Shown: piece by piece, positions 1,150 through 53,100 of the stretch | How the letters are laid out: each line of letters opens with the position of its first letter | Numbering within the stretch: the first letter of the stretch is position 1 | Assembly: GCA_032622095.1 (NCBI GenBank) | Contig: CP136061.1 | Span: forward strand, 39,437,797-39,501,796 | DNA length: 64,000 bases | Reading direction: 5' to 3' | Origin: Siphonodentalium dalli | Lineage: Eukaryota > Mollusca > Scaphopoda > Gadilida > Siphonodentaliidae | Position numbers and translations under genes: made by a program | Notes under the pieces: model-generated | What the model was told of the DNA's origin: nothing | The model's input: only the letters and a program-made list of their open reading frames with translations | Database searches by the model: none

Positions 1150-1611
1150 TGTGACCCGCCATATCAAATCCAGTCGGAAGTCGGGATTTTTTTTACCCTG
1201 TGCCAAATGCATTATCTTATATATGCGAGTCGACCATAGGTCGCCTCGCATATATAAGAGAATGCATTGGCCTAACAATTTTTTATCATTTTTTTTAAAT
1301 AAATGTTTCTGACAATTTTTAGGACATAAAATAAAAAAAACATCCATTACCCTGCAGGGAGCCCCACACATATATAGAAGCATATAGAAGAGTGTCGTCT
1401 GCTCATGTTTGTCTGGGGCTCTGTATGGGTGAAATTATAAAATTGTTAAAGAATACAAGAAAAAATTATTAAAATTGTAAAAATTATTAGGCCAATGCAT
1501 TCTCTTATATATGCGAGGCGACCTAGGGTCGACTCGCATATATAAGAGAATGCATTGGCACAGGGTAAAAAAAATCCCGACTTCCGACTGGATTTGATAT
1601 GGCGGGTCACA
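1150..1611. mobile_element. Family A MITE copy A1 (TA target)
   Basis: The termini are TGTGACCCGCCATATCAAAT and its reverse complement, extending inwards to GTCGGGAT, flanked by TA at 1148-1149 and 1612-1613. Inside are two hairpin modules (GCCAATGCATTCTCTTATAT plus GCGAG and partner arm), a central hairpin with gtgtcgtctgctcatg, and AT-rich spacers. There is no coding capacity. Confidence 0.85.
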
Positions 1612-1613
1612 TA

Positions 1614-2538
1614 TTATGGACTTGTTCGGGTACGTGAAACTGACGAGTTAGTGTTCAGGCGCTATGCCAACAGGAGGAATGTAGCATTATACTAACATCG
1701 CGGAAATTTTCAAGCAATCGACGGTAGTTACTCCATAGAAAACATCATCTGAACTACGGTCAATTGTAAATATTTACATCTCGATTAGGGACACAACTAT
1801 CAACGATAAACTAACAAAAATTATTTCGCCACCGAGAGTCACTGAATGAAAGTGTGTTGTTAATTTGGATATAATATTTGTAAAAATAACTACTTTTAGC
1901 AAGATTATTCTCCATTTATATTTAATCACCCTACCGGAGTGTTTCGCAGCACTTTAAATATACGACGTTTTACTTTTCGGTGCTTCTCCGCTATGTTATA
2001 GGCAAACATATATAGAGGATATCTACACTTTTTGGTTGGATATAGGAATTATCTCATGAGTGATGACCAAAAAAAAATGAATATCCTCGAGTGGCTCGTG
2101 TAGATGTTCTGTTTATTATATGCTCCGTTCAGTTGGACCATGACTCAACTGGGAAGGAGAGTAAAAAGAGCAAATTGATATACCCAAGCACAACGATGGT
2201 AATGAGCTTGTGCATATAAAAATAGTTCCATTTTTCAGACATCTTGGTTGAGGGATAAATGGCTTAACATCATAGTATGTTTAACAAAATAATTTAATTG
2301 ATCATATATCACAATTTTTTCAACCTCAACACTCAGGAACATTTAGCTTAGTATTCCATCAAGAAACCTAATCGCTTTTAATTTTAGTGCGGATGGATAC
2401 GAGTGAGATATCGATATCTCACTAGACGGATAACGGTTTATATCTGATGCAAAAATAATATTATTTGATAGCTTAGCATAACATAAAATAACAGATCACA
2501 CTTCTCTTGGTAAGTCAGACACTGCTATGTGAAGTAAG
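1614..2538. other. No gene recognised
   Basis: AT-rich, apparently unique sequence. A short inverted pair with tatcgatatctcac lies near 2400. No coding signal. Confidence 0.45.
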
Positions 2539-2540
2539 TA

Positions 2541-3116
2541 CAGTAATGCCCTAAGTAATCGACCTCTTAACCCTTTACCCAACAAACCGGCCAAAAACGG
2601 CCAAATAAAGCTGCAACAGCCTAAATTATCTTGGGTCTGTCTCAATAAAACCATACAAATATGGATATCATTGGAACCGGCTCATTGACCATATTGTGAT
2701 GGTTACAGTTATGCCCTGTGCCAATGCATTCTCTTATATATGCGAGTCGACCATAGGTCGCCTCACATATATAAGAGAATGCATTGGCCTAAAAAAATAA
2801 TCTTTTTTTAACACTTTGTACCATTTTTTCTTACATTCTTTAACAATTTTATAATTTTTAATGTGTTAAGCCAATGCATTCTCTTATATATGCGAGGCGA
2901 CCTATGGTCGACTCGCATATATAAGAGAATGCATTGGCACAGGGCCGTTCTGTTGGGTAAAGGGTTAACCACAGCAGAATTATGGGTAACTTTTCAGGAT
3001 TTAGTCGGAAATATGGCTTTCCGATGAATGGCAACAAGCCATATTTCCGACTAAATCCTGAAAAGTTACCCATAATTCTGCTGTGGTTAAGAGGTCGATT
3101 ACTTAGGGCATTACTG
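2541..3116. mobile_element. Palindromic TA-flanked MITE interrupted by B1
   Basis: The ends CAGTAATGCCCTAAGTAATC and complement are flanked by TA at 2539-2540 and 3117-3118. TA targets with CAGT ends are typical of Tc1/mariner-type elements. With B1 removed, the arms form one long palindrome running through ttatgggtaacttttcagg, with centre near 3030. B1 sits in the left arm only. Confidence 0.8.
2571..2964 (+). mobile_element. Family B MITE copy B1 (TTAA target, piggyBac-like)
   Basis: The element is CCCTTTACCCAACA...TGTTGGGTAAAGGG, flanked by TTAA at 2567-2570 and 2965-2968. It contains two hairpin modules (about 2720-2788 and 2870-2938) in mirror orientation. TTAA duplications with CCC ends are the hallmark of piggyBac transposition. 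It is inserted in the left arm of the 2541-3116 palindrome. Confidence 0.88.
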
Positions 3117-3582
3117 TAGCTCCGTTAAATGGCCGACGTCACCTCCACAATCGACACCTGGTGGGCCTCAAAGGAACCTATTAATGGTATAGTAGTTATG
3201 TTGGGGAACAACACATGAATTACGTTTTAATATACATAAACAACTCTGAAAGAAGCCCCAACAAAACGTGTTTGTGATCTGCCACCTCTCCATAACTTTT
3301 CAATTTAGACAATAATGTTGAGTACGTATACGATCCACGTGTTAATGTAAGTTAGCTTTAGAAATGAATAGCGCTATACGCTTTAAGTATATCTAGATTC
3401 ACAAGTCTCGTCGCATAATTGCGGTAATTAATTTCGCAAACGATATATACATGTAACAAAATGGTACTTTCACTTTCAGTAAACCAAAAGTTAGAACACG
3501 GTTCGGTTCTGGTTGACAAATACGTTAAATGCTTTTAGATGGACTTATACAAGGACCCAGAAAAAAACGGGTCCCTATGGGT

Positions 3583-3695
3583 TCCCAGTTTATAGTGGAA
3601 AACGAGTCTAGTGAATTAGGTCTGGACCGAGCCTTTGCCGAGGTTCAGACCTAATTTACTTGACGAGTTTTGTAAATTCCGCTATAAACTGGGGA
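3583..3695. repeat. Imperfect palindrome
   Basis: The arms cccagtttatag and ctataaactgggg continue inwards through gaattaggtctg and cagacctaattta to a short loop near 3640. It may be a small MITE, but no target duplication is evident. Confidence 0.65.
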
Positions 3696-4219
3696 CGTGT
3701 TGTAGATTCTATTTATTACATGATCCAAAACCTCGACAAAACATACTTAAATCAACAAATGGGACGCGAAACTAACATCGGCTTCTATAAGGTATGCGAT
3801 GACGTTTCGCATAACTATGAGAAATAGTTCGAGTTAAACAAAGACCCTTTGGCGTATTTAATGGCGTATATATTGTGACATAACTTTTCAAACTCTTCAT
3901 TCGTTATAGTTTGTTGGAAAAATATTGGAAGCTATAGTATTTAGAGACGTAGGGTGCGGAATGTAAACGGACGACAAACCGGAAGTCAGAGGTCGCCTGA
4001 CAATCCTTTCTGTTATGCAACGAACGTTTAATATCATAATTTATAGAATGGGTTTATTGAATGGAATAAGGTAGAATCGTGTAATAAACTCTTATACTGA
4101 CTTATGTATGCCGTATAAAGATTCGTTGAATTAAGTCATATAGAATTTCGAAAAGTTGTCCCGATTTTCTTGGGCGTGGAACAATATTCCCATGACTTCA
4201 GGGGAGGTGGAAAAACGTT
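3696..4219. other. No gene recognised
   Basis: Apparently unique AT-rich sequence, no coding signal. Confidence 0.4.
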
Positions 4220-4305
4220 TCCGGACACGTAGGCGGGGGTGGGTGATTTCCGGACACGTAGGCGGGGTGGGTGATTTCCGGACACGTAGGCGGGGGTGGG
4301 TGATT
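4220..4305. repeat. 29-bp tandem repeat, three units
   Basis: Three units of ccggacacgtaggcgg plus ggtgggtga, differing by one G. The resulting open frames on both strands are by-products of the repeat. Confidence 0.85.
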
Positions 4306-10193: not shown

Positions 10194-10640
10194 TGTGACC
10201 TGCCATATCAAATCCAGTCGTAAGTCTGGATTTTGTTTACCCTGTGCCAATGCATTCTCTTATATATGCGAGTCGACCATAGGTCGCGTCGCATATATAA
10301 GAGAATGCATTGGCCTAACAATTTTTTACAAATTTAATAATTTTGTCTTGTATTCTTTAACAATTTTATAATTTCACCCATACATAGCCCCAGACAAACA
10401 TGAGCAGACGACACTCTTCTATATGCTTCTATATACATGTATGTGTGGGGCTCCCTGCAGGGTAATGGATGTGTTTTATGTCCTAAAAATTGTAAGAAAT
10501 ATTTATTTTAAAAAAATGATAAAAAAATGTTAGGCCAATGCATTCTCTTATATATGGTCGACTCGCATATATAAGAGAATGCATTGGCACAGGGTAAACA
10601 AAATCCCGACTTCCGACTGGATTTGATATGGCGGGTCACA
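10194..10640. mobile_element. Family A MITE copy A2
   Basis: Ends TGTGACCTGCCATATCAAAT and GGCGGGTCACA, flanked by TA (10192-10193, 10641-10642). The first hairpin module is complete. The second has lost about 13 bases of its tip (reads tatatggtcgactcgcat). Confidence 0.85.
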
Positions 10641-10654
10641 TATTGCCATGTGAC

Positions 10655-20042: not shown

Positions 20043-22775
20043 TGTTCAGTCGACGTGCCAGAATTTACCCGCAGGAAATATAACTGGCGGAATTTAAACA
20101 TGCATCTGTATCAATATGTGCTCGAGAGTCATATAGATGAAATTTCACAGCTACAAACAAAATGTAAGCAAGACGTTAAAACCCTATACAACAAGATAGT
20201 TGAATGGTTGCATGGAGCTGCGTCAGCATCTTGCGGTGTAAAATCAGTATGTTCATTTAAAAAACCATATTGGAATCCACTACTGAGTACGTTACACACC
20301 GACGTGAAACAAAATCGTCGTCTCTGGATCTCCGATGGGAAGCCACATTCTGTTAATTCGCTCTCATACGTGTCTTACAAAAACGCTAAACGTCGTTTCA
20401 GACGTGAACTGCGAAGCGCAATACGTCGCCGTGAGCATATATTCCTGCAAAATGTCGAAAGTGCGGCTCACTCTGATGTCACGGCATTCTGGCGGATGAC
20501 CAAACCAGCCAACCAGAAACGAAGTGTAGCAACAGGGATAGATTTTGGTGATGGAGCACACACGGACACTCAGAGTTTATTATCTGGTTGGCGGGATTAC
20601 TTCAGTCAACTATATAGCCCGAGTCCACACGAAATCCCGGAATTCGATCTTGAAGTATCTAGTACTGTTACGGAATTAATGACGAAGTCTCACGCAGACT
20701 ACAATTCAACAGTATTCTGTGACATTATTCCAGCAGATGAAATTGCTATTCATATCAGGAAACTTAGAAAGAACAAAGCCGGTGGGAGTGATGACATTGT
20801 TAATGAACACTTAATTAATGCACCAGACTCAGTTTACCTGGTCTTGTGCAAATTGTTCAACGCCATTATCAAACATGAGTGGATTCCTGTAGACATGAAA
20901 GCCGGAGTAATTATTCCACTATACAAAGGCGAGCCAAAACCAAAAAATGTCCCTGACAGCTACCGGGCAGTAACTTTGCTCTCAGTTTTGTACAAACTCT
21001 TCGAGGCTGTTATGATGTCGCGATTCTCGAGCAAGAACGCGTCGATGTTCATTCCTCATCAGCTCCAATTCGGCTTTCAAGAACACATTGGTTGCAACAT
21101 GACGTCATTCGTCGTTCAAGAATTCATCTGCCACATTGGTGATAATGGATCAAAAGCGTTTGTTTGCTTCCTCGATTCACAGAAAGCGTTTGACCGTGTG
21201 TGGCATGATGGTCTCTTAGTTAAATTAAGCGCGCTTGGATTCAGTGGTAAAATTCTTCGAATTATTGCCAACATGCATGATAATTGCTACAGCCGTGTGC
21301 TGTATAATGGTTGCCTGTCTGATAATTTCCACATTCTCCAAGGAACAAGACAAGGGTCCGTGACCTTTCCCTTTTTCTACTTGGTATTCATCGATGAACT
21401 GTTGTACATACTTCAAAAATCTACACGCGGCCTACAGATAGGCAATATGAATTGTACTTCACCGACCACGGCAGATGATATTTGCTTGATCGCTATGAAC
21501 AAATCAGGACTCGATGAATTACTGGAGATATGCAACTCATACAGTTCCAAATGGAGATTTTGCTTCTCGAAAACAAAAAGTGCTGTCATCGTCTTCAACG
21601 AGACTCGGTCTCAACATATCAAAAATAAAAGAACTTGGTCTATCGGCCTCAGTGATATTACTGAGACAACTGAATGTCGCCACCTTGGAATAACTCAGCA
21701 TAAGTTCAACCATAACCACACGCGTGCGACTGAAATGGCAGATACCATGCGGAAAGCATACTTTACAGTTGCCGGTAGAAAAGCTCTGGAATTGTGCACG
21801 CCTCTGTCGATGTCAAAACTGTTCCTCACAATTGCTATTCCAAAAGCACTATACGGTGGCGAACTACTATATTCGCCAAGTGAAGATACTTCATATACAC
21901 TGGAAAAATCTCTCCGTAAGTGCGTGAAACACATCCAGAATCTACCAGCGAGAGCCAGTACAAACCTGTCACTCGGATTACTTGGAATCCAACCCGTCAA
22001 ACAGCAGCTCCATCTGAAGAAACTTGCTTTCTTAGGAGATCTTATCCATTTGCCAGAGTCACACGAAACACCACTGAGAATATTCGTCTTCAAAGTTTAC
22101 CAGCAAAGACTTTTCAATATCAACACAACAGGTTTCGCGGCAGATATAATAAACATCCTTCAGCTTTATGGGCTTGATAAATACCTAAACGTCTTCCTCA
22201 ACGAAGGAATCTTTCCATCGAAGTATTACTGGAAGCGCATCATCAACACATCTGTGCGATCTAATTACATTAATCAGTGGTTACTGTCAAACTCTGGTGA
22301 TTTCCATTGGTATAGACACATACACAGAGATCCGTTATCGACTTGGAGTATTTGGAAACTTCTAGCCGGGAACCCGAGTCATTCTCAAGAACTGAAGAAC
22401 CTAGCTCTATTACTGAATAGAACTACATATAAGAATAATTCATCATGTGCAGCCTGCAAGCACCACTATGACAATCAGTTCGATCACATACTTTTCTCAT
22501 GTAATTCAGCCGAAATTCTACAACTGAGGTATATTTTCTGGTGCGATCTAATTGATCGTCTCGGCATAGAAACTTTCGTGTATCTTGACTCCCTCCATCC
22601 CGATCAACTACAGGCGTTCTTATTAGGTGGAACTGACTTGTTATTGCCTCCTCAGTCTGTGCAATATAATTGGGGCCGCATACTCATATTCACGGCAAAA
22701 TTTCTACACACAGCCTGCGTGGCGACACGATTGCCAGAAGTGAGCGGAAATACACACCAGACCATATCCGTGTGA
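20043..22775 (+). CDS. Non-LTR retrotransposon (LINE) reverse transcriptase
   Basis: The frame opens after a TAA at 20040-20042. A GTG at 20055 begins PEFTRRKYNW, with about 906 codons to TGA. RT blocks are seen in order: KNKAGGSDDIVNEHL (motif 0), GVIIPLYKGEPKPKNVPDSY and LLSVLYKLFEAVM (motif 1), QLQFGFQEHIGC, FLDSQKAFDRVWH (catalytic Asp near residue 374), GTRQGS with FIDELL, TADD near residues 472-475, FSKTKSAVIVFN and ECRHLGI. The C-terminus has a CAACKHHYD...H...C cysteine-histidine motif near residue 798, as found after RT in several LINE clades. The first 100 residues look like the usual linker between endonuclease and RT, but no apurinic-type endonuclease frame is found upstream, so the copy is probably 5'-truncated. 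ATG starts are absent at the N-terminus. TADD replaces the usual FADD or YADD. Clade is not assigned. Confidence 0.88.
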   Translation, partial: CSVDVPEFTRRKYNWRNLNMHLYQYVLESHIDEISQLQTKCKQDVKTLYNKIVEWLHGAASASCGVKSVCSFKKPYWNPLLSTLHTDVKQNRRLWISDGKPHSVNSLSYVSYKNAKRRFRRELRSAIRRREHIFLQNVESAAHSDVTAFWRMTKPANQKRSVATGIDFGDGAHTDTQSLLSGWRDYFSQLYSPSPHEIPEFDLEVSSTVTELMTKSHADYNSTVFCDIIPADEIAIHIRKLRKNKAGGSDDIVNEHLINAPDSVYLVLCKLFNAIIKHEWIPVDMKAGVIIPLYKGEPKPKNVPDSYRAVTLLSVLYKLFEAVMMSRFSSKNASMFIPHQLQFGFQEHIGCNMTSFVVQEFICHIGDNGSKAFVCFLDSQKAFDRVWHDGLLVKLSALGFSGKILRIIANMHDNCYSRVLYNGCLSDNFHILQGTRQGSVTFPFFYLVFIDELLYILQKSTRGLQIGNMNCTSPTTADDICLIAMNKSGLDELLEICNSYSSKWRFCFSKTKSAVIVFNETRSQHIKNKRTWSIGLSDITETTECRHLGITQHKFNHNHTRATEMADTMRKAYFTVAGRKALELCTPLSMSKLFLTIAIPKALYGGELLYSPSEDTSYTLEKSLRKCVKHIQNLPARASTNLSLGLLGIQPVKQQLHLKKLAFLGDLIHLPESHETPLRIFVFKVYQQRLFNINTTGFAADIINILQLYGLDKYLNVFLNEGIFPSKYYWKRIINTSVRSNYINQWLLSNSGDFHWYRHIHRDPLSTWSIWKLLAGNPSHSQELKNLALLLNRTTYKNNSSCAACKHHYDNQFDHILFSCNSAEILQLRYIFWCDLIDRLGIETFVYLDSLHPDQLQAFLLGGTDLLLPPQSVQYNWGRILIFTAKFLHTACVATRLPEVSGNTHQTISV

Positions 22776-24474: not shown

Positions 24475-25090
24475 TGTGACCCGCCATATCAAATCCAGTC
24501 GTAGGTCGGGATTTTTTTTTACCCTGTGCCAATGCATTCTCTTATATATCCGAGTCGACCATATGTCCCCTCGCATATATAAGAGAATGCATTGGCCTAA
24601 CAATTTTTTATCATGTTTTTAAAATAAATGTTTCTTACAATTTTTAGGACATAAAATAAAAAACATCCATTACCCTGCAGGGAGCCCCACACATATATAG
24701 AAGCATATAGAAGAGTGTCGTCTGCTCATGTTTGTCTGGGGCTCTGTATGGGTGAAATTATAATTTTTTTAAAGAATACAAGAACAAATTATTAAAATTG
24801 TAAAAAATTGTTAGGCCAATGCATTCTCTTATATATGCGAGGCGACCTATGGTCGACTCGCATATATAAGAGAATGCATTGGCACAGGGTAAAAAAATCC
24901 CGACTTACGACTGGATTTGATATTGCGGGTCACATATACCAGTGATTGATCAATAAAATGACTATATCATAGAACAATAATTAAATGACTCCGGCATTTA
25001 TAAGACTGGATTGTTAGCCATGTGTGGTTTCTATCACTTTGACTGACTACTTAGTAATCGCTAACCCAGTATTTGATATGGCGGGTCACA
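24475..25090. mobile_element. Family A MITE copy A3, with a second right terminus
   Basis: A standard family A copy (24475-24934) is followed by about 155 bp that end in a second copy of the terminus, ATTTGATATGGCGGGTCACA at 25071-25090. The first 130 bp after the inner end are also found after A4. The left flank is TT rather than TA. Confidence 0.72.
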
Positions 25091-28049: not shown

Positions 28050-29180
28050 CCGGATCAATTCAACTATTGGTGAGTGTTACTGGATCTAACCCTAACCTTA
28101 ACTGGATCAACTCAACTATAGGTGAGTGCAGCTGGGTCTAACACTAACCGGACCATTCAATCATTGGTGAGTGCAACTGGATCTAAATCTAACCCTAACC
28201 GGATCAATTCAATCATTAGTGAGTGCAACTGGCTCTAACCCTAACCCTAACCGGACCATTCAATCATTGGTGAGTGCAACTGGATCTAACCCTAACCCTA
28301 ACCGGATCAATTCAATCATTGGTGAGTGCAACTGGGTCTAACCCTAACCGGACCATTCAATCATTGGTGAGTGCAACTGGATCTAAATCTAACCCTAACC
28401 GGATCAATTCAATCATTAGTGAGTGCAACTGGCTCTAACCCTAACCCTAACCGGACCATTCAATCATTGGTGAGTGCAACTGGATCTAACCCTAACCCTA
28501 ACCGGATCAATTCAATCATTGGTGAGTGCAACTGGGTCTAACCCTAACCGGACCATTCAATCATTGGTGAGTGCAACTGGATCTAACCCTAACCGGATCA
28601 ATTCAATCATTGGTGAGTGCAGCTGGGTCTAACCCTAACCGGACCATTCAATCATTGATGAGTGCAACTGGATCTAACCCTAACCCTAACCGGATCAATT
28701 CAATCATTGGTGAGTGCAGCTGGGTCTAACCCTAACCCTAACCGGACCATTCAATCATTGGTGAGTGCAACTGGGTCTAACCCTAACCGGACCATTCAAT
28801 CATTGGTGAGTGCAACTGGATCTAACCCTAACCGGATCAATTCAATCATTGGTGAGTGCAGCTGGGTCTAACCCTAACCGGACCATTCAATCATTGATGA
28901 GTGCAACTGGATCTAACCCTAACCCTAACCGGACCATTCAATCATTGGTGAGTGCAACTGAATCTAACCCTAACCGGATCAATTCAATCATTGGTGAGTG
29001 CAGCTGGGTCTAACCCTAACCGGATCAATTCAATCATTGGTGAGTGCAGCTGGGTCTAACCCTAACCCTAACCGGACCATTCAATCATTGATGAGTGCAA
29101 CTGAATCTAACCCTAACCGGATCAATTCAACCATTTGTGAGTGCAACTGGATCTAACCCTAACCCTATAAACCTAACCGG
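28050..29180. repeat. Minisatellite carrying telomere-like CCCTAA runs
   Basis: About 23 units of 44-58 bp: gatcaattcaatcattggtg, agtgcaactggatcta and one to three CCCTAA. Units alternate between gatcaattcaa and gaccattcaa types. Length varies mainly by the number of CCCTAA hexamers. Open frames across it are repeat artefacts. Confidence 0.92.
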
Positions 29181-29384: not shown

Positions 29385-30335
29385 GATCTGCAACGAGTTA
29401 TGTTGATATATAAGATTTTATGAAACGAGTTTCATCAATTTGATTCACAGCAAGTTGTGAATCAAATTTATAAACGAGTTGCATAAGATTTTATATCCCA
29501 ACAGAACGAGTTGAAGATCTTGTATATCACATGAAACAAATTAGAGCTTTATGCCTTTTTAACAAATCAAAATCTTAACCCTTTACCCAACAGAACGGCC
29601 CTGTGCCAATGCATTCTCTTATATATGCGAGTCGACCATAGGTCGCCTCGCATATATAAGAGAATGCATTGGCTTAACACATATTAAAAATGATCAAATT
29701 GTCAAAGAATGTAGAAAATATTATAAGAAAAAATGGTAAAAAGTGTTAAAAAAAGATTTTTTTTAGGCCAATACATTCTCTTATATATGCGAGGCGACAT
29801 ATGGTCGACTCGCATATATAAGAGAATGCATTGGCACAGGGCATAACTGTAACCATCACAATGTGGTCAATGAGCCGGTTCCAATGATATCCATATTTGT
29901 ATGGTTTTATTGAGACAGGCCCAAGATAATTTAGGCTGTTGCAGCTTTATTTGGCCGGTTTGTTGGGTAAAGGGTTAACAGAAGCTTAAAATGCACACAC
30001 ATTTAAATTGCTGGCTGAGATGCTTCACAACCGTATACAACAGCAATGCGCGTTCAAGCTGCCGACGGAAAATATAGTCCCCCAATCTGCCTCTTTGTTT
30101 TTGTGTCTATTTTTGTTAGTGCACCGAAGTTGGACAAGAATTTTACATTTTACTTTAATGAACAATGCAATCATTTTGCATTGCCTGGTGTTGTTGTCAT
30201 GTGCGGCTTTACGAAATAGTAATAATCCGCCTGATGCAATGTAAAATCATTTTATTGGCGCGATGCCAATTGGCGGGAAGCAGGCGCCTTTTCGTCATTA
30301 GTGAGAGATAAGGAAATATGTAACGGCTTTTTAAA
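29385..30335 (+). repeat. Dispersed repeat R29 (inverted copy at 43467), holding B2
   Basis: Shared with 43467-43906 in reverse: aagattttatatcccaac, cgagttgaagat, gagctttatgcctttttaac, agttggacaa, ggcgcgatgccaa, gagagataaggaaatatgta. B2 interrupts this copy but not the other. The element type is not identified. Confidence 0.78.
29579..29974 (-). mobile_element. Family B MITE copy B2
   Basis: TTAA at 29575-29578 and 29975-29978 flank CCCTTTACCCAACA ends. The internal order is reversed relative to B1 (the AACAGAACGG end is on the left). Two hairpin modules, one with a single-base change (atacattc). Confidence 0.88.
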
Positions 30336-30761: not shown

Positions 30762-30888
30762 CCCTTTCAGTGCCAAGTCCGATTTTTGTATCAACCCATA
30801 TTTCCTTGATCATTTTTCAAATTTATTAAATTGAAAAATGATCAAGGAAATATGGGTTGATACAAAAATCGGACTTGGCACTGAAGAG
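30762..30888. mobile_element. Family D perfect-hairpin TTAA element
   Basis: TTAA at 30758-30761 and 30889-30892. Arms of about 60 bp (CAGTGCCAAGTCCGATTTTT and onward through atatttccttgatca) are nearly identical. Only the outermost CCCTTT/CTCTT and the tiny centre differ. Likely a minimal piggyBac-type foldback. Confidence 0.78.
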
Positions 30889-32072: not shown

Positions 32073-32465
32073 CCCTATACCCAACAAACCGGCCAAAACC
32101 TGCCAAATAAAGCTTCAACAGCCTAAAATATCTTCGGTCTGTCTCAATAGAACCATACACATATGGATATCATTGGAACCGGCTCCTTGACCACATTGTG
32201 ATAGTTACAGTTATACCCTGTGCCAATGCATTCTCTTATATATGCGAGCCGACCATAGGTCGCCTCGCATATATAAGAGAATGCATTGGCCTTTTTTTCT
32301 TACATTCTTTGCATTGCATTGACATTTTTTCTTACATTCTTTAACAATTTTATAATTTTTAATGTGTTAAGCCAATGCATTCTCTTATATATGCGAGGCG
32401 ACCTATGGTCGACTCGCATATATAAGAGAATGCATTGGCACAGGGCCCTTCTGTTGGGTAAAGGG
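32073..32465 (+). mobile_element. Family B MITE copy B3
   Basis: TTAA at 32069-32072 and 32466-32469. Left end CCCTATACCCAACA has one change. The spacer between the hairpins has a small duplication (ttttttcttacattctttg twice). Confidence 0.86.
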
Positions 32466-34222: not shown

Positions 34223-34570
34223 AGCCTGTCATTTGTAGAATGAGGTCCTCAGAGGGCGAAATTAGTGAATAGTGATGCTATCCCACATAGTGGGCTAGCA
34301 TAACCAAACTCACCCTCTGGGGGACCTAATTCTGCTTAGTCCTCATCTGCTATGGGAGTCAATGACTCAAATTGAAGTTTCCAAATAATGGTGAATATTG
34401 TGACCCATTGGGAACCTCAAATATGCAATGTGTCGTCTGCCAATTTGGGGATACAGAGAAACTAATCTAAAAAAAAGAAAGATAATCTATGTGAAGAAGT
34501 TTCTATAGAAATTAGATAATAAAGAAACTTTCCAGAGAAGATGAGGCCCAAGCAGAATGAGGTCCCCATA
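34223..34570. mobile_element. Family E element E3
   Basis: Left end cctgtcatttgtagaatgag, hairpin with gatgctatcccaca and tgggctagcataac, interior gcaatgtgtcgtctgccaat shared (reversed) with E5. It breaks at gaatgaggtcccc (about 34568), where a family C element begins. Confidence 0.65.
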
Positions 34571-34730
34571 GTGAGCCTCACATATATAAGAGAATACATT
34601 GGCCTATAAATCTTTCCCTTGACCTTGTAAGCCAGTGCATTCACTTATATATGTGAGACTCACATATATAAGAGAATGCATTGGCACAGGATCATTAATG
34701 CTGAACCAGCGCAGCACCCTAATGAAAGGG
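34571..34730. mobile_element. Family C MITE copy C4, left-truncated
   Basis: Contains the diverged hairpin pair (gagcctcacatatataagag, gcattcacttatatatgtga) and the right end aatgaaaggg before TTAA 34731-34734. The left terminus is missing and replaced by E3. Confidence 0.6.
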
Positions 34731-35091: not shown

Positions 35092-35965
35092 GTCAAGTGG
35101 TCCTGTTAATGTACTATGATGCTGGTGGGTCCTGCTGAATTGATATGATGCTGATAGGGCAAAATGATGCTGTTAAGAAAAGTACCGTTATTTTTTCTAA
35201 AGGTGTCATTTTCGCGGTGATAGGATAATGTGAACATATCCAGGAAATGGCATTATGTGTGTCAAACATTCAAAGATAAATATATTGCAAACTATTTTAA
35301 TACTGGTTGTATTAACCCTTTACCCAACAGAACGGCCCTGTGCCAATGCATTCTCTTATATATACGAGTCGACCATAGGTCGCCTCGCATATATAAGAGA
35401 ATGCATTGGCTTAACACATTAAAAATTATAAAATTGTTAAAGAATGTAAGAAAAAATGGTAAAAAGTGTTAAAAAAAGATTTTTTTTAGGCCAATGCATT
35501 CTCTTATATATGCGAGGCGACCTATGGTCGACTCGCATATATAAGAGAATGCATTGGCACAGGGCATAACTGTAACTATCACAATGTGGTCAAGGAGCCG
35601 GTTCCAATGATATCCATATTTGTATGGTTCTATCGAGACAGACCGAAGATATTTTAGGCTGTTGAAGCTTTATTTGGCCGGTTTTGGCCGGTTTGTTGGG
35701 TAATTGTTCCAAAATCGACTGTAAATAAGATGGCTATACACGTCAGTTTGCAAACACCAGCACAGCTATTATTAATATTTTCAAAAATATATATATTCTT
35801 GAATATGTCATACAGACACCGGCTTTTATCACTCATACTAGATAAACACAGTGAAAATGACAACTTAATAATGGTACTTTTTCATTTCGCCCTACTAGCA
35901 TCATAGCAATTCAGCAGGACCCCCCCCCCCCCCCACATAGCAGTCAAGCAGGACCACTTGACCAG
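35092..35965. repeat. Inverted repeat bracketing B4
   Basis: Left arm 35092-35160 (agtcaagtggtcctg, gggtcctgctgaattgata, gatgctgatagggc) pairs with right arm 35889-35965 (gccctactagcatcatagca, attcagcaggacc, caggaccacttgacc). The right arm also contains a poly-C run (35921-35934). Confidence 0.68.
35316..35703 (-). mobile_element. Family B MITE copy B4, right end truncated
   Basis: TTAA 35312-35315 on the left. The right end stops at TTGTTGGGTAA without AGGG and without a second intact TTAA junction. Both hairpins are present. Confidence 0.8.
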
Positions 35966-38894: not shown

Positions 38895-39148
38895 CCCTTT
38901 CATGACTGGAGCTTCCTGAAATTTTCTGAAAACCTTGTGCCAATGCATTCTCTTATATCTGAGAATCTCCCATAGGCAGCTTCGCATATATAAAAGCATA
39001 CATTGGCCTAACAATATTTACCTTGACCTTGTAAGCCAGTGCATTCTCTTATATATGTGAGGCTGCCTATGGAAGACTTGCATATATAGGAGAATGCACT
39101 GGCACAGGTTCTTTAATGCTGCACAGCACAGCTCCAGTCATGAAAGGG
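38895..39148. mobile_element. Family C MITE copy C1 (TTAA target)
   Basis: CCCTTTCATGACTGGAGC ... GCTCCAGTCATGAAAGGG between TTAA 38891-38894 and 39149-39152. Holds two diverged versions of the A/B hairpin (gtgccaatgcattctcttat; gccagtgcattctcttatat). Confidence 0.85.
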
Positions 39149-39291: not shown

Positions 39292-39751
39292 TGTGACCCG
39301 CCATATCAAATCCAGTCGTAAGTCGGGATTTTTTTTACCCTGTGCCAATGCATTTCTCTTATATATGCGAGTCGACCATAGGTCGCCTCGCATATATAAG
39401 AGAATGTATTGGCCTAACAATTTTTTATCATGTTTTTTAAATAAATGTTTCTTACAATTTTTAGGACATAAAATAAAAAATATCCATTACCCTAGAGGGA
39501 GCCCCACACATATATAGAAGCATATAGAAGAGTGTCGTCTGCTCATGTTTGTCTGGGGCTCTGTATGGGTGAAATTATAAAATTGTTAAAGAATACAAGA
39601 ACAAATTATTAAAATTGTAAAAAATTGTTAGGCCAATGCATTCTCTTATATATGCGAGGCGACCTATGGTCGACTCGCATATATAAGAGAATGCATTGGC
39701 ACAGGGTAAAAAAATCCCGACTTACGACTGGATTTGATATTGCGGGTCACA
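39292..39751. mobile_element. Family A MITE copy A4
   Basis: TGTGACCCGCCATATCAAAT ends with TA at 39290-39291 and 39752-39753. Body nearly identical to A3. The next 130 bp are also the same as the A3 right flank. Confidence 0.82.
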
Positions 39752-40076: not shown

Positions 40077-40468
40077 CCCTTTACCCAACAGAAGGGCCCT
40101 GTGCCAATGCATTCTCTTATATATGCGAGTCGACCATAGGTCGCCTCGCATATATAAGAGAATGCATTGGCTTAATACATTAAAAATTATAAAATTGTTA
40201 AAGAATGTAAGAAAAAATGGTAAAAAGTGTTAAAAAAAGATTTTTTTTAGGCCAATGCATTCTCTTATATATGCGAGGCGACCTATGGTCGACTCGCATA
40301 TATAAGAGAATGCATTGGCACAGGGCATAACTGTAACTATCACAATGTGGTCAAGGAGCCGGTTCCAATGATATCCATATTTGTATGGTTTTATTGAGAC
40401 AGACCCAAGATATTTTAGGCTGTTGAAGCTTTATTTGGCCGGTTTTGGCCGGTTTGTTGGGTAAAGGG
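40077..40468 (-). mobile_element. Family B MITE copy B5
   Basis: TTAA at 40073-40076 and 40469-40472. Both ends intact, two hairpins. Very close to B4 in sequence. Confidence 0.88.
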
Positions 40469-40484
40469 TTAAAGGTGTACAAGC

Positions 40485-41123: not shown

Positions 41124-44100
41124 CTGAAATGGAGAAGAGAAGAAAACTTTAACTCTTTCATGACAGGAGCTGTGCTGTGCAGCATTAAAGATCCCATAGG
41201 GAACCCTGCATATATAAGAGAATGTACTGGCTTACAAGATCAAGGTAAATATTGTTAGGCCAATGTATTCTATTATATATAAATAGGCTCCCTATGGGAG
41301 ATTCGCATATATAAGGGAATACATTGGCACAGTATTTTCGCAAAACTTCACAAAGCTCCAGTCATGGAAAGGTTAAAGGCTGACATATTCAAAACCTCAA
41401 ATTACATTATATTTATCATGTTCTATATCATCTATCTATTTATGTCACATGACACCCCTATAATATAATTCAACGAGAGGCCGATCACGATCGGCAGATG
41501 TTTAACCCATACCTTGGCGATAGCGATTAGCTATTTTTATAAATTTTATAAATCCTTACACCAACCTTTTCATGAGTGCAAAAGTTTCAACAATTCACAC
41601 TTTATATAGTGATCGTGTGAAAAATATTTAGTTATCACATTGTGTCAACAGGATTGGTGGAGGATGTTAATATTTTAAAGCAAATAAACCAAATGACCCT
41701 CACTATGCAGGTTAGGGGTGTGTTATCGTCAACTATGCCAAGAACTATAAACATAATCAATGGAAATATTTGAGTTATCAAATCGGATAGAATGGGGTTA
41801 ATCTTACCCAAACTAATGAACTGATAAACACAAAATAGTCTATGAAAAGCATGTCATTGGATTTAGAACCCCATACAATAAGTCAGTCTCAAGAATACCA
41901 GCACCATTAATATTATCCTGGAGCCCAAATGCAATTGAGGGAATTTCAAAATAAGACATTTCCTCTAATGATGAATATTCAATTGGTGATGTATTGAAAC
42001 CCTTACTGAACCTGGCTCAAAGTGAAAGGGATAATATTATATCTGTCTATCGCATAATATGTGTCTATGGAATGGTTTAATTTTAATCCCAAATCCAGGC
42101 AAATCAAAAGTGGATCACCATCAACCTGGACATAACATAGGAGAATGATTAAATGAAAAGCATCAAAACCATATGATGTGTGGAGAGGGTTAATCATTTT
42201 CAATGACATCATGTTATGGAACTAAGGAATGTGTGGATAAATTTTTGTCTAAGATAAGACAACAGTGTTTGTAAAGAACAATGTCTGTAAAACAACACTA
42301 CAAAGTAACAATGGACTATTCCAATTTATTATTTTAGAATAGGTGTCATATAGTGTGTGCATATAGCTAATGTAATAAACCTGTTTCAACAAAGGGGTTA
42401 ACTTCATATTGCACAGAAAGCAGAACTCCACCAGAGAGTGAGTAATCAATCAGTTTGACATAATTATGATAACAAGTCCAGCCAGCCAGTGGTACCACTA
42501 TCATGCTTTATAGCATGTAGTATCTAATGTCATAGTGATAATTAACTCATTTCAATAACACACATTGCTGTGGGATATATGTTCTCTTCAAATTCCCAGC
42601 AGTAATTACTTGAATTATAAAGGGTCATAACACTGTTAAAATATATCGGATCAAACCCATATTCGAACTCGATCTGTATTTAGGGGTGATAAATTCATAT
42701 ACCAAATTTTGTGTTGATCAGATGAAAAATGTTTTGAGTCATAGCAGCTTGGGTGAATTCTAAGTAAACATAAGAGTGAAAAGGGTTAATTAAACAATAC
42801 CAAAAACCATACAGATGAAGAACGTGCTAAGAAAAACCTAGGTAAGAAATATGAGGCAGATCAGAAGAAATATGTTCAACTTATTGCATTGGATAGCATG
42901 TGTGTAAAGGGTTAATTATTTTCTAAACTGATCAACCAATCAATACCAAAAACTATACAGGTGAGGGGTGTGTCATCATAAACCTACATATCAAATATGA
43001 ACACAATCGGACAAAAAAATATTTCGGTTAGAGCATCGGATTTAAAAAAAAAATATTTTATTTTCGAAAAAAGGGTCATAACTCCTTTAAAATAAATCGG
43101 ATCAAACCCATATTCGAACTCGATCTGTATTTTTGGCTGTGAAACTCACATACCAAATTTGGTTCCAATCAGATAAAAAATGTTTGAGTTATGGCAGAAT
43201 GCGTGAATTCTAAGTTGAAAAAGTGCCATAACTCTGTAACAAAATCTCGGATCAAACCCAAATTCGAACTCGATCTGTATTTTGGCCTTCGATTGGATAG
43301 AAAATGTTTGAGTTATCGCATTACTCGTAAAGTGTCTACGGACAGACAGACAGACAGACGGACAGACAGACAGACATACAGACAGACAGACAGACAGACG
43401 GACGAACGACGAGTGGTCAATCCGGGCAACGACACTATGTTTACCATACTATGGTATGGGTAAACATAAAAAGCCATTACATATTTCCTTATCTCTCACT
43501 AGTTACATATCACTTGGCATCGCGCCAACAAAATGACGGCGTGTCTTTACATTGATTCAGGCTCATTAATACTATTTCAAAAAGACACCCATGACACCAA
43601 TAACAAAATGATTGCTTTGTCCAACTTTGTAGCACTAATGAAAATAGACATAAAAACTTTTATTGGCAAATTGCGTCTCAGCCAACACAGTAAATGTATG
43701 CATTTTGCAGCTTCTTTTAAGGGTTTTGATTTGTTAAAAAGGCATAAAGCTCTAGTTTTTTTCATGTGATATACAATATCTTCAACTCGTTATGATGGGG
43801 TATAAGATTTTATTTGATAATTCACAATTCGTCTACGACTCGTTATGAATCAAATTTATCAAACTTGTTTCATAAAATCTTATATCCCAACATAACATTG
43901 GAGATCCTCTCTATAATAATACAATTAAATTTTGTCTGTTTTTTTGTCTGTCTGTCAGGGTATGGGCGACCAAACGGCTGGACCATCGGAGCTTAAAATT
44001 TTGTACACAGGGGTCAATTGATCCAGGGCGTGTCCTGGGATAGGTGCCATTGACTTCAGGTGTCTTAAAAGGGCACTAATAATTAACTTAACTAAATAGT

Positions 44101-47100
44101 TAATTATATAAACAAAAGGAGACCAAATGGCTGGACTCTCAGAGCTGAAAATTTGTACACAGGGGTCAATTGACCTGGGGAGTATCAAGGGGTAGTTGCC
44201 GTTGACATCAGATGTATAAGGACCTGGTAGCTGGAAATTGGTATGAAGGATTAAATTGACAGGGATTACCATTGGAGAGGTGCTGTTGACCCTAAAGGGG
44301 AACTTAAAAATTATATTATCATATATGATCAATAAAGAGCGTTCCTTAACAGCCTAGACAATATGTAGGAAAATTGGCACACAGGGGTCACCTGACCAGT
44401 GGAATACCATGAGATAGACGCCTTTGTTCTCAGATGACTTAAAGTTGGACTAATAAATGATATTCACATAGATGATCAATGAAGAATGTTTATTATCAGC
44501 TCAGAAGATAAGATAGAAAATTGGCACACAGAGGTAATTTGACAAAGGGATTGTCATGAGATAATTAGTTACCTTCAAGCCTGACAACCACAGGTAGTTG
44601 AAGCTGCATAGACTGACATGCGTTAGTGATTCCTTTAGCTATAGTGGCACAATCCACGATTCCTCCAAAGATGTTCACCAGAATAGATTTAACCTGTAAA
44701 CCAAGATATATATCAACAATATTTCCAACTTCATTTAAAGTAAATATTTCATGCTGATTAGACTCAAAACTCATGCTAATGTTGGGATGCATGAAAGAGT
44801 TTTTAAGATTCTGAAATAATTTGCAGTTAGCCTTGAAATGCTCTTCACTGAGCATAAACATCAGGATTTGCCAAATTGGCCAATATAAATTTTTTTTTTT
44901 TTTCGAAAATGGCCTAAGAAAATTTAATTTGGCCAAACTTTTTGGCTTAAAAGTTCCAGGCTTATTAGTCAGCAATCACCTCTAATGATATCACACCAGA
45001 TCTCAGTAAAACCCTTACATTCATCGATAATTAATCAGTAGTTGCACAAGTACTAAGTACTTTCACTTATTTTTTGTTGGCTTATGTAATAAAATCCAGT
45101 TAGCATTCTCGTTAAGTCGTCAACAAAATCTCAAACACATGACATGATATTTACACCTGCAGTGCCGATACAAATTTCCGTAGAGCCCGCCGAGGTGACT
45201 GCACTTCTAATATTTGATATTAAGTCGTAAGTCGGGATATTTTTACCCTGTGCAAATGCATTCTCTTATATATGCGAGTCGACCATAGGTCGCCTCGCAT
45301 ATATAAGAGAATGCATTGGCCTAACAATTTTTTACAATTTTAATAATTTTTTCTTGTATTCTTTAACAATTTTATAATTTCACCCATACAGAGCCCCAGA
45401 CAAACATGAGCAGACGACACTCTTCTATATAAGTGTGGGGCTCCCTGCAGGGTAATGGATGTTTTTTTATTTTATGTCCTAAAAATTGTCAAAAACATTT
45501 ATTTAAAAAAAATGATAACAAATTGTTAGGCCAATGCATTCTCTTATATATGCGAGGCGACCTATGGTCGACTCGCATATATAAAAGAATGCATTGGCAC
45601 AGGGTAAAAATATCCCGACTTACGACTGGATTTGATATTGGGGGTTTGGAGGTGACAATTAGTAATGATGGACCCAAGAATTTACAAACCCACAAAAAAC
45701 TCATAAACAGCTGAACCACTGATACCAACAAAATTAAAGCCTTTTGCATTAATTAAGTTTAAAGAATCATCGGGGCTTGATTTCCATGTTCTAAGTGTAA
45801 GCGCTTTAATTATGTATACAAATAATATGGAACTCAGGTCACAAGATCCTCTATTTCTTTATGGTAACCTTCTAACAGCCATATGTAAGTTATTGAACTT
45901 ATTATCTCCTCCAATAAATAGAACCATTACTGTCATCTGCTCATATTTCCTGAACATCCCTTCAGATGAATAATAGACCACTCGAATGTATACTCTTAAA
46001 ACTGAATGGGAGAATCCATGTAGCATAGAAAATTTAAAAGATGCCCTGTACGATTTAATACCTCTAAATTACTATTTCTGCAGCTTCAATGGCAAAAAAT
46101 ATTTGATTTGAGTCAAGGAACCCACCTTTTTTAAAATCTATTTATTTTCTACACATCAAATTCACTCACAAACTCTTATTAAGGCATCTACGCCTGTATG
46201 TATATAATTCCGGTGGAATTTTAGCGAGGCTGACACTGATCTTTAGAGGGTGGGTTCCTCGGTTAAAATAAAATATTTGAATCATACCTGGTCATCGCTG
46301 TTGAGCAGTTTGAAGGCATGGAACACCTGCTGTTCGGTTACTCCTCCTCCGACATCGAGGAAGTTTGCTGGGCTTCCTTTATGTAGCTTTATGATGTCCA
46401 TCGTCGCCATGGCCAGACCAGCACCATTGACTAAAATCAAATCAAAGGTTTCGTGTCTAAAGATGCTCTATCTCCAAGTCTGGATATATAATAATGGGAT
46501 GGGAATATAATAAACATGTGCCTTCAAATAAAGTTTTGAAGAAATTTCTACCTGAGAGAGGTGCTGGAAAGAGATAGAAATAGTATGTCTGTCATTTGCA
46601 GAATGAGGTCCCCAGAGGGTGAATTAAGTGACGTTATCGCTACCGCTATAGGAGACCTGGGATCAGATTGGAGTTTCCCAGTTGAAGTTGGTGATTTCAC
46701 CGTTAGTCACCTCGATTATGCATTTTATCTTCAGAAAATTATGGAATATAGAAACTGAACAGAAGGGAAAAAGTAAGTAAAAACAATGTTAATTTGAGAC
46801 TATAGATACTTCCCAGAAATGGGGCCAAAGCAGAATGAGGTCCCCAGAGGGTGAATGTAGTGAAACTAGCCCACAGTGCAGGAGAGCATCACTAAATTCA
46901 CCCTCTGGGGACCTAATTCTGCAATTGACAGACACTATTTCAAGGATTATCTATCTCTTCCCAGCACCTCTCTCAGATAGAAATTTCTTCAAAACTTGAT
47001 TTGAAGGCACGTATGCATTGCATTATTATATTCCCATCCCATTATTATTCCAAAAAGACATAACAGAAAACATCCAGTGCTATATATATTTCTCAAGGTT

Positions 47101-50100
47101 CCCATTACATAACATACACAAATCACACTGAACAGCATGATGTTATAAAAATGGTTACTTATTCTATTCCAGTCTGTAGAAATATTTCCTCGTGACAGAG
47201 GCTGTTGACTGATATCCCAGAATCCATTCAGAAAGTTCAGGAAAGAGATATAGCATCTATAATGGATGTGAACCTCAAATAATAATTATATGTCCGATAG
47301 AGTGAATATTAACCCTTTTATGACTAGAGCTTCCTCAAATTTTCCGAAAACCCTGTGCTAATGCATTGTCTTATGGAGCCCATAGCCCATAGGGAGACTC
47401 GCATATACATGTATAAGAGAATACATTGTCCTAACAATATTTACCTTGACCTTGTAAGCCAGTTAATTCTCTTATAAATGTGAGGCTCCCTATGGGGACT
47501 CGCATAGAAGAGAATGCACTGGCACAGGATCTTTAATACTGCACCAGCACAGATCCCATCATGAAAGGGTTAAAACATACTTTACAATGAGTTTTCAACC
47601 AAAGTTGCCAACATATGCTCCAAGAATATTAAATGAATTACTAATCCCCCAAAAAAATGCATATGACTTGGTGTTCTGAGGAGATAAATGATGGATATCT
47701 AGTGTTTTGGAGTGGATATAGAAATTATCTCAAGTCAGGAACCAGCCTAGAGGGCGAATTGGGAGACACCTTCTCCCTAAAATGTGCCACGTCTCCCTAT
47801 TTTTGTCCCAGGGAGAAGTGACTTCTCTATCATATACCAGCATATTGTTAGGGTGTAAATTGAACTTCAACCATTATTACTTCTCCTTGATAACAGTTCA
47901 CTTCTCCGCAATAACCAAACAGGAAGAAATGACTTCTCCCAATTTGAAACCTTTCAGCTGGCCCCTGTCTTGAGTGAGGGACAGAATTTGTTTTGTTTTT
48001 CAAGCATAATTTCTAAAGAAAAAGTAACTATGCTTGCATACGGGTGAAGTCTTTGATGAAGTATACATTTTTCTTCCTATTTTATTAACAGACAAAAATA
48101 CATAATCATTCAGATGAACTCATAATTGTCAAGTTGAGTATACAAAATTTCCCCATCCATTCCTATATAATGCAGACTACACTCTGACATGCATACATTG
48201 ACACCCTATATTCCAATAGTCCAATCCATTCCTATATAATATAATTCAGACTACATTCTGACATACATACCTAGACAACCTATATTCCCATCCATTCCTA
48301 TATAATTCAAGTTCTTTTCAGCCGCCATTAACTCCCGTGGATCAGATTCAGATATGTCTTCCATTGCGAAGATCTCCTTTTGTCTAAATGCTGCATTGTC
48401 ATCAAAATTAATCTTGGCATCAAAACAAACAACTGGAAAAGAAAGGGATATTTTAAAGTTTACAGTTGTGCACTATGTTGAGAAAAATGAACATGACTTT
48501 GTGGCATCCATCTTGTGCCTCCATACTAGTACAATAAGGGAGCCGATGGTCAATATCATATTGAACCTTGTTTCGAATCAGCCAGTAGCCGGTGCATGCC
48601 TTATTACAATCTCTACCAGAGCACACCAGTCATACTTCCTTTCTGACTCTTGTCACCGGCTGGGTAATAGTCTGTGTTTCTATATTTAGCGTGGGATTTT
48701 CCAGGCAAAATGGCGAAAACCGACCACCCCAAAGTCTAATTTCTTTTGTGCTTTGAGAACAATTCCTGCACTAAAAATTTAATGACAGAATGGAGAATTA
48801 GAGCAGTAGTTTTGTTGATGATTTTCACAAGCTACTCATCAAAATTGCAGAAAATTGGAACTCTTTGTGTTTGACTTGCCTTGCATGTTGTCGTGACAAT
48901 GTTGTCCATCTGCGTTTAGACATTTGTGTTGATAAAATAATCAGAGACACTGTCATGAAAGGGATAATAACCGAGGCGATATATAAAGTTTAATGTTTAA
49001 CCCACTGGGAGCCTCACACAGATGAAAGCATGCACTACGGAGTGTCGTCTGCTGAAGTCTGTGTGGGGCTCTCTATGGGTCATGAAAGGGTTAATTAGTC
49101 ATTATATTGAACACCTCGAATATCAATGTCAGAAAAGAATAATGTCCAATGGCGACCTTTCACCTATAGCTATGAGATCTGGCCCTTGACAATTAGCGGT
49201 TGGTGCACAACATGACCACTCTCATACTAGAACAAGAAGTTGACTCAATGCGATATGTTAATACCCATTGTTCATGTAGTTTTCAACAATAGGGCACATA
49301 AATACTTTTCTGGGAAAGATAATTAACCAGTTACCAATTGATCAAATGTTAGGCACAGTTTGTCACTTATGTATGCTTGTTGACGTTACCTAAGTGAACC
49401 AACTACTGAAAATGTAACACACCGTGAGAGTGGCGACAAGTATTACGCATGCGTCATTCATATTTCATCATCACTTCTGTGCATAATCCATAACAATGTG
49501 TCCATGACAAGGACATATTGGATATTCAAAAATAATAAAATCGAGGGTCGGTGTCAACACATAAATCACATCTGCAATATCGACATTGACTTGAATATTC
49601 TCAGGATCCTATAGTTACTAGGTAGTGAAACCTTTTTCAAAATATGTTACATTGGACTTTAATATTTAATAAACAGTAGAAATTGATCATAGGAACAACA
49701 AAAATAAGCTTGAATACTGGAGCTGAAACAAGGTTTTTCACCTTCAAAATATAACATACTGAATTTGATATAGTTGGGAAATAGCTGGTAGCCTGGTAGA
49801 TAATGTTACAGACTTAATTTATCAGGAAAATATGTATCATTCCATCTACATTCTGAGGCTAAAACAAAACTGCCTACTCCATGCTTCTGAAGTCTGAAGC
49901 AAAATCAAAATCTTCCACCACTCTTAAAAGTACACAATCCGATTCGATGGTCCCCATATCATCAGATTCCAACAACAACATTTCTTGAAATGACACTTCA
50001 GTTATCAGAATTGATTAATTGCCAAAAAATAATGTTAACCACTGTCAACTATCGTAGAAAATTGCCCAAAAAGTGTTATATATTATTTATACCATAATTG

Positions 50101-53100
50101 CCTGTTCTATTGTGTGTATAACACCCATTTTATAAACTTCATCTTTACACCCTACTGTGGGTATACAGCTTCTTACTGTGGGTATAAATTTCAACTGTGG
50201 GTGTAAGTAAAATAGTCCCTATGTCACATTCATTTGAAATTGGAAGTTGTCATGATATCAATTACATATGAGGAAAATTGCTTGAATTTCAACCAAATGT
50301 AGCTTGCTAGTGCTATATTAACTAGGAAACATATGAATGATAATTCCAAGTGACTGATCGCTCAGAAACAGGATGACGTCATGACATTAATGTAAGCATC
50401 ACTACGCATCAAAACCACAATTACACTCGTGGTGAAAATTTGGTATTCTCGGCTACTATGGGTGTATTCTATATATATACATTTTGTTCAATGCAATTTG
50501 GTATTGAGAGTATGATTGTTGGCATTCGTCAAATATTTGCCAGGCCGCCAAATATTCCAGGTAGTGAAAAATGATAGATTTCAAAAATCAATATCTGATA
50601 ACTCTGAGCTTTGTTGGGTGGGTTCCTTGACTCGAAACAAATATTTTTTACCCCCGAGGCAAAGAAATAATAATTTAGGAGCGTTAACCCTTTACCCAAC
50701 AAACCGGCCAAAACCTGCCAAATAAAGCTTCAACCGCCTAAAATATCTTCGGTCTGTCTCAATAGAACCATACAAATATGGATATCATTGGAACCGCCTC
50801 CTTGACCACATTGTGATAGTTACAGTTATGCCCTGTGCCAATGCATTCTCTTATATATGCGAGTCGACCATAGGTCGCCTCGCATATATAAGAGAATGCA
50901 TTGGCCTAAAAAAAAAGAAATTAACACTTTTTACCATTTTTTCTTACATTCTTTAACAATTTTATAATTTTTAATGTGTTAAGCCAATGCATTCTCTTAT
51001 ATATGCGAGGCGACCTATGGTCGACTCGCATATATAAGAGAATGCATTGGCACATGGCCCTTCTGTTGGGTAAAGGGTTAAATCAGACAATCCATCTTTA
51101 ACAGCAACACGACCTTGATAACCAGACACCTTTTATTTGGTATAAACCAGACACCTTTTATTTGGTATAAACCAGACACCTTTTATTTGGTATATGATAA
51201 CCAGACACCTTTTATTTGGTATATGATAACCAGACACCTTTTATTTGGTATAAACCAGACACCTTTTATTTGGTATACCGGTATTCCTATTGTAATTTTT
51301 CAAAAAATACATTGTTGAAACAAACCTTCTCCAGTTGATGTTTCTCCAAATGGGTTGATCTCAACTTGCGTGGCATCAACTTTCATGAATAGTTCATAAA
51401 GTTTCTTTATCTCTTGTGCTGCCTGAGGAATAAATCAGTAGTATATTTACATAGTCCGCCTGTGTTACACTAAATCAGTAGTATATTTACATAGTCCGCC
51501 TGTGTTACACTAAATCAGTAGTATATTTACATAGTCCGCCTGTGTTACACTAAATCAGTAGTATATTTACATAGTCCGCCTGTGTTACACTAAATCAGTA
51601 GTATATTTACATAGTCCGCCTGTGTTACACTAAATCAGTAGTATATTTACATAGTCCGCCTGTGTTACACTAAATCAGTAGTATATTTACATAGTCCGCC
51701 TGTGTTACACTAAATCAGTAGTATATTTACATAGTCCGCCTGTGTTACACTAAATCAGTAGTATATTTACATAGTCCGCCTGTGTTACACTAAATCAGTA
51801 GTATATTTACATAGTCCGCCTGTGTTACACTAAATCAGTAGTATATTTACATAGTCCGCCTGTGTTACACTAAATCAGTAGTATATTTACATAGTCCGCC
51901 TGTGTTACACTAAATCAGTAGTATATTTACATAGTCCGCCTGTGTTACACTAAATCAGTAGTATATTTACATAGTCCGCCTGTGTTACACTAAATCAGTA
52001 GTATATTTACATAGTCCGCCTGTGTTACACTAAATCAGTAGTATATTTACATAGTCCGCCTGTGTTACACTAAATCAGTAGTATATTTACATAGTCCGCC
52101 TGTGTTACACTAAATCAGTAGTATATTTACATAGTCCACCTGTGTTACACTAAATCAGTAGTATATTTACATAGTCCACCTGTGTTACACTAAATCAGTA
52201 GTATATTTACATAGTCCGCCTGTGTTACACTAAATCAGTAGTATATTTACATAGTCCGCCTGTGTTACACTAAATCAGTAGTATATTTACATAGTCCGCC
52301 TGTGTTACACTAAATCCTCTTCGGTGATTGGTCAACTTCCAATTGGCTCACCTGTTTCATACCCCAATAACACACAGACCGTAACCCCAGCACGACGTCA
52401 CAAATTGTTGATCTAATTTGACCTAATCACTAAAAGACGTCAGCAGAATAATTGTTGCTAAGTGCTTGGAAATCTTATGTTGGGATGACTTAATGTGCTG
52501 TGTGGGCTAGTATCAAATTCTCAGCTTTTTTTATGGGAATAAATCTTCAAAAATCTATATAAATATAAGAAATTAATGGTGGGCATGTGTGTTATTAGGA
52601 GATACAGTGCTTTGTTCGTTTGAGGCACTTATTGAGAACCGCTTTGGGGTTCACATAATGTGCCCTAATGGCCACAGCACCTTATCCCCCAATAACACAT
52701 ACCCCCACTACATTCATTTCTTAAATAAAAGAGATAATACCACAATTGATACACATATTGACTCTTTTCATGAAATGACAAGAATGAAATCAGATTCAAC
52801 CCTGTTAACCCTTTGAACCCGAGCGGCCGGAAAACCAGCGTGAACCTCCAAATACCCCAGCGGCCGGTATACCGGCCGCTGAACCGTCGAGTATACCGAC
52901 CGCCACGTGTGTATTGTTTACAAGCATTGTCGCGGTCGTCTGCTTCTCCAATAATTATGTTTTTGTTTGTGTCTTGTTGCTATTGAGAAATTTGAGTTTA
53001 AACACACAACATCATGAATTATGAAGACTAAAACATTTTCGGTAGACGAGGTGGTCTGGCAAATTTTGGAATCGGACACGGAAGATTTAGATCTATGATG

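Follow-up and report, generated by a model that had tools for sequence, protein, structure and literature searches.

The locus and its elements

The window, by which we mean the whole 64-kb stretch of DNA analysed here (C1:39437797-39501796), belongs to a genome of 2.23 Gb with nine large contigs. It contains an RVT_1 open frame (20043-22775) and, near 44565-44975, part of a CoA-ligase exon, both consistent with a eukaryotic genome, and a search against Rfam gave no match within it. Dispersed along the window are MITE families that carry a common hairpin, here called H (GCCAATGCATTCTCTTATATATGCGAGTCGACCATAGGTCGCCTCGCATATATAAGAGAATGCATTGGC), which is a near-perfect palindrome of 69 bp.

Family A is represented by five elements, all on the plus strand. 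A1 (1150-1611) has TGTGACCCGCC ends, a TA/TA duplication and two hairpins (1196-1276 and 1487-1565), and in A2 (10194-10640) the second of the two hairpins (10240-10319 and 10529-10594) has suffered an internal deletion. A3 spans 24475-25090, and its right half, its right arm and the next 140 bp are identical to A4 and the A4 flank, before its own terminus is regained at 25080-25090. A4 itself (39292-39751) has a TA/TA duplication and is the likely donor for the converted half of A3, and A5 (about 45200-45650) consists of an A-type core with inner arms and hairpins at 45246-45325 and 45525-45604. Family B is represented by six elements. B1 (2571-2964, minus strand) has CCCTTTACCCAACA ends, TTAA on each side and two hairpins, and B2 (29579-29974, plus) is built likewise with a variant of the spacer; the others are B3 (32073-32465, minus), B4 (35316-35700, plus), whose right terminus is truncated, B5 (40077-40468, plus) and B6 (50688-51077, minus). 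A preliminary description of this DNA had delimited the same eleven elements by their termini, which holds apart from A5, where the canonical TGTGACCCGCC termini are missing, and B4, where the last bases are lost; furthermore it had placed the right end of A3 at about 24934, and this must be moved to 25090.

Four elements belong to family C. The one at 38895-39148 (plus) has CCCTTTCATGACTGGAGCT ends, TTAA, a short spacer and two diverged hairpins, and the one at 47313-47569 (plus) likewise has TTAA and two diverged hairpins; the left part of the copy at 34559-34730 (plus) is absent and the copy at 41153-41372 (minus) is diverged. Lastly, D0 (30762-30888) has TTAA and the ends of a fourth carrier family, D, which adds to the three recognised at the outset, but it contains no hairpin and is the H-less counterpart of the H-bearing D elements.

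Architecture of the core

A profile search of the window finds exactly 22 copies of H in the eleven A and B elements, in agreement with the initial count of about 22, and a further 8 diverged copies in the four C elements, as had also been proposed for this family. The presence of the same hairpin twice in A and B, together with a common spacer phrase, is likewise confirmed, since termini and phrase occur far above shuffled expectation (11, 10 and 12 matches in the window vs shuffle means of 0.55, 0.32 and 0.04). The two hairpins had been said to lie in mirror order, and they are indeed inverted relative to each other, the precise arrangement being H - spacer - rc(H), with the first hairpin returning as its reverse complement, and the full core is CCCTGTGCC-H-spacer-rc(H)-GGCACAGGG. 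Homology between families ends at CCCTGTGCC and GGCACAGGG, and the discrete unit common to them is accordingly CCCTGTGCC-H...rc(H)-GGCACAGGG. The whole core self-folds strongly (z about -21.6).

In A the spacer contains an additional insert of about 140 bp. A short MITE-like repeat, ACCCATAGAGAGCCCCACACA...CTGTGGGT, resembles this insert; one copy starts at 49001-49036 of the window, and another, in the C1 segment L090, has TA on both sides. The hairpins are unstable, as seen from tandem H units in the segment L033 and from the frequent internal hairpin deletions. The element in question (L033:1500-2560) is a C element with about ten hairpin-plus-spacer units head-to-tail. In a number of A-type cores (L035, L037, L039, L151 and L153) the arms have been lost at nearly one place, which lies within the T-run adjoining the core or immediately outside it.

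Carrier families, target sites and copy numbers

The families were sampled in 70 segments of C1 (284 kb), which were picked via A or B termini or cores and are not a random sample, and in these the core is present, at least in part, in 24 of 24 A, 39 of 39 B and 5 of 5 C elements, and a single H in 3 of 5 D elements. Family B had been assigned the target TTAA, which is borne out by 34 of the 39 sampled elements, and the same duplication flanks all five C and all five D elements. The target of A had been given as TA, and TA does occur, but the duplication is more generally 2 bp of A/T (TA, TT or AA) and never TTAA, with 17 of 24 elements matching against a permuted mean of 9.9 (P=0.0006). An obligate TA duplication, as for Tc1/mariner MITEs, is thus not a property of A.

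With TTAA on both sides and the terminal motif CCCTTT, which satisfies the piggyBac-type CC[C/T]T, families B, C and D would, as judged from target site and terminal motif, fit piggyBac-type MITEs (TTAA target, CCC... ends), whereas A does not. Piggybac-like frames are plentiful, with 128 PF13843 matches among 649 candidates and many frames intact in the genome; the 3' sides of 18 such copies were sampled, and none showed the A, B, C or D ends expected of an autonomous partner.

Counted as exact matches, so that all figures are lower bounds, the 27-mer of the outer H arm, i.e. the outer arm of the core, occurs 139,625 times in the genome, the B terminus 91,648 times and the A terminus 27-mer 17,725 times, and the reversed control patterns gave 0 matches throughout. 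Family D is a third young family, which targets TTAA and of which about 13,000 copies carry a single H. In the H-bearing form a single hairpin stands directly after TATCAACCCATATA and is followed by an A-like spacer, TTCTTATATTCTTTAACA, and in the hairpin-less form TATCAACCCATATTTCC is found at the place of the hairpin. The same D arm therefore occurs genome-wide both joined to H (13,115 exact matches) and without it (10,030).

Two A-type elements of about 1.4 kb at 4.49 and 4.55 Mb of C1 (L082:1501-2912 and L085:1501-2888) are of a different make, in that A ends and half hairpins flank a long inverted repeat enclosing an open frame of 142 amino acids, which matches Bcl-2 (PF00452, E 9e-11) and appears to be a copy of a host gene captured by the A family. 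Elsewhere on C1 (824385-917033, L021-L028) successive B termini are spaced ~11.17 kb apart, which marks a large tandem duplication carrying B elements.

Divergence of hairpins and ends

The H consensus of A is identical to that of D and differs from that of B in 1 position, situated in the inner flank, and from the left and right hairpins of C in 5 and 10 positions, respectively. The hairpins of A and B diverge from the H consensus by about 2% on average and those of C by 11-15%, and the mean distances between hairpins (A-A 0.026, A-B 0.023, B-B 0.018, and 0.16 to C) tell the same: A and B hairpins are not separable (P=0.078). Complete concordance between core and end trees, with the cores of A and B as distinct old clades, had been named at the outset as what would speak against the proposal; for A vs B this is refuted, and it is the C hairpins that form the older, distinct clade.

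Arms and hairpins were also compared within B. Variants confined to a single B copy have the same frequency in the arms as in H (0.46% in each), while sites diagnostic of subfamilies number 13 of 151 in the arms vs 1 of 156 in H (P=0.0006), although three of the diagnostic columns sit at the core boundaries, where they are biased by the choice of some loci, and the contrast becomes weaker without the boundary columns (about 11 of 149 vs 1 of 156). Since private rates are equal but diagnostic sites fall mostly in the arms, the hairpins of B probably have a more recent common ancestor than its arms, and the ends had probably already diverged when H came to be shared. That H varies so little between B subfamilies could alternatively be read as constraint on the source copies. 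Homogenisation of H after insertion is ruled out by the equal frequency of private variants in arms and hairpins, and an earlier and cruder contrast of arms with H proved to be produced by subfamily sites, CpG and homopolymers.

Recombination products

One such product lies within the window, in A3. Over its first 294 bp (24475-24768) A3 has 14 differences from A4, whereas over the following 300 bp (24769-25068), which comprise the second hairpin, the right arm and 140 bp past the A4 terminus, there are none. A3 then regains an A terminus (25080-25090) at a 7-bp microhomology, ATTTGAT, and its TT/TT duplication fits solely the outer end at 25090. The simplest reading of this arrangement is that A3 was repaired with A4 as template, through the hairpin and into the A4 host flank.

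A second product joins two families. The locus L088 reads CCCTTTACCCAACAG-TTATG-TGTGACCCGCC...TTTTA-CCCTGTGCC and then continues with the core of B and a right arm of B that is truncated, so that an A arm stands between B terminus and B core. It is a single locus in the genome; A/B chimeras are indeed rare at present (1 of 48 A hairpins). Furthermore, in L058 a B element has inserted at TTAA within a C element, and such nesting sets two H-bearing elements side by side and is a substrate for exchange. A B element predating the core was not found, since at least 5 of the 6 matches are plain hairpin deletions, and a possible pre-core A exists at one locus only; the transfers by which A and B first acquired the core have thus not been observed.

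Origin of the shared core

The preliminary description had left two routes to the sharing of cores, namely exchange between transposon systems and a core that is itself mobile and captures new ends. The latter may be phrased as the proposal that the core is or was a TA-targeting MITE of its own, with ends CCCTGTGCC/GGCACAGGG, which inserted into the ancestors of A, B, C and D, and it would explain why all families have one and the same outer boundary, why TA stands on both sides of the core in A and on the H side in D, and how a core with TA on both sides can exist outside the known families at the locus L150. However, there is no TA at the core in B and C, so the obligate TA of a Tc1/mariner MITE does not hold for the core either, and the flanks of L150 have a 12-bp direct repeat (CATGATCTACCC) in common rather than a simple TA duplication. 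Genome-wide, C/G+TA precedes only 429 of the 139,625 arms. Twenty of these sites were read, five of them in more depth, and the majority proved to be A or D elements bearing a substitution, with truncated copies and L150 making up the remainder. Where C or T precedes the core, the first 30 cases likewise all lie in A, B, C or truncated A copies, with none free-standing with a target duplication of its own, and within the window no free-standing core is found. Since free-standing TA-flanked cores are this rare (<1%), the core as a mobile unit is not supported and we regard its autonomy, past or present, as improbable.

It would seem about equally improbable that H is uniform because it is functionally constrained, as a transposition enhancer, a source of hairpin RNA or a replication feature, and that its sharing is ancient. 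The strong folding of the core and the fact that subfamily-diagnostic changes are found in the arms and not in H both agree with constraint, but H mutates as fast as the arms after insertion, A, B and D are identical even in the unpaired loop and at the imperfect positions, which pairing does not demand, C holds many H variants at its 11-15% divergence, and the unrelated ends would be left unexplained. Descent of all four families from one MITE, the ends of which diverged beyond recognition, is in turn hardly credible. B, C and D do all start with TTAACCCTTT, but the interiors of A and B are within 1 base in 80 of each other and yet the two families have nothing in common in their ends and use different target sites, and the same D arm is found with and without H; for A vs B such descent is in fact already refuted unless ends evolve far faster than H, and the private mutation rates are equal.

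Exchange of cores, on the other hand, is supported by the common H consensus of A, B and D, by the inseparable hairpins of A and B, and by the recombination products L088 and A3/A4. We therefore consider it probable that H is a module residing in at least four MITE families with unrelated ends, passed between them by recombination and then amplified with each set of ends. The sharing of H, the recombination products and the counts are direct observations, and the course of events may be pictured as follows. H with its spacer would be an internal module and not a transposon, already old in the TTAA family C, and its source would have been C or a C-like element. A younger variant of H would then have been passed to ends without common ancestry, those of A with their 2-bp A/T target and the TTAA-targeting ones of B and D, by recombination between copies, nested or separate, in which template switching or ectopic gene conversion ran through H into the arm or flank of the partner and rejoined at short microhomology. 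The founding transfers presumably used the same route as the visible junctions, and each new combination would have been amplified as a unit by a transposase recognising its ends, for B, C and D presumably one of the piggyBac type.

A more far-reaching version, which we put forward tentatively and think rather doubtful, is that H is a recombinogenic cassette recruiting ends across transposase systems, in that a cruciform or hairpin forming at H provokes breaks, repair proceeds through H into the arm of a partner, and successful combinations burst as MITE families. If this were true, mobile elements would evolve by interior-driven shuffling of ends across superfamilies. Classification of MITEs by their ends assumes that ends and interior have one history, and here the histories can be separate: one interior, present in tens of thousands of copies, occurs in families that differ in their ends and in their target duplications, and since H-less counterparts and junctions can still be read, the origin of new MITE families becomes directly testable. 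It should also be mentioned that repeat libraries clustering by interior will merge unrelated transposon systems.

Relation to known systems

It had been stated that no description of this family was known, and indeed we did not find the H family in the literature searched, but the phenomenon as such was published in 2010 for the CMITEs of Acropora corals (Wang et al. 2010, PMC2872659). These are TTAA MITE families with piggyBac-like CCCTTT ends, whose TIRs differ and whose one common interior is more conserved than the TIRs; one element holds the interior of another family, tandem arrays occur, and a new element arose by one inserting into another (PMC2872659). The H families likewise combine distinct TIRs with a common interior more conserved than these. 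However, the CMITEs are ~100 bp long, with 75 bp of interior, number about 1,600 and all have TTAA (PMC2872659), whereas A has a 2-bp A/T duplication and never TTAA, exact arms here number ~140,000 and the interior is a double palindrome, and H-less sister elements and visible recombination junctions go beyond what is found in the corals. The CMITEs are thus the closest known case, to which the present one adds a non-TTAA family, far larger numbers, H-less sisters and readable junctions.

Foldback or palindromic MITEs have long inverted repeats and strong self-folding as is also seen here, but they differ in that each long inverted repeat of the present elements encloses a second palindrome, which is common to families with other ends. 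According to Luchetti et al. (2019, PMC6887750), the MER6/V-domain MITE carries and amplifies a domain from an unrelated element, and the likeness lies in a foreign domain being carried and amplified by a MITE; as described there, however, the V-domain is SINE-derived and rides one transposon family, unlike H.

Other repeats in the window

A number of further repeats are found alongside the H-bearing elements. The stretch at 28050-29176 is a minisatellite whose units measure 45-52 bp and which includes telomere-like CTAACCCTAACC stretches, and at 51271-52450 there is a nearly perfect tandem array with a unit of 40 bp. Another dispersed palindromic repeat, consisting of CAGAATGAGGTCCCCAGAGGGTGAATTTGGTGATGCTAGCCC and its reverse complement, occurs at about 11 places between 16943 and 46935.
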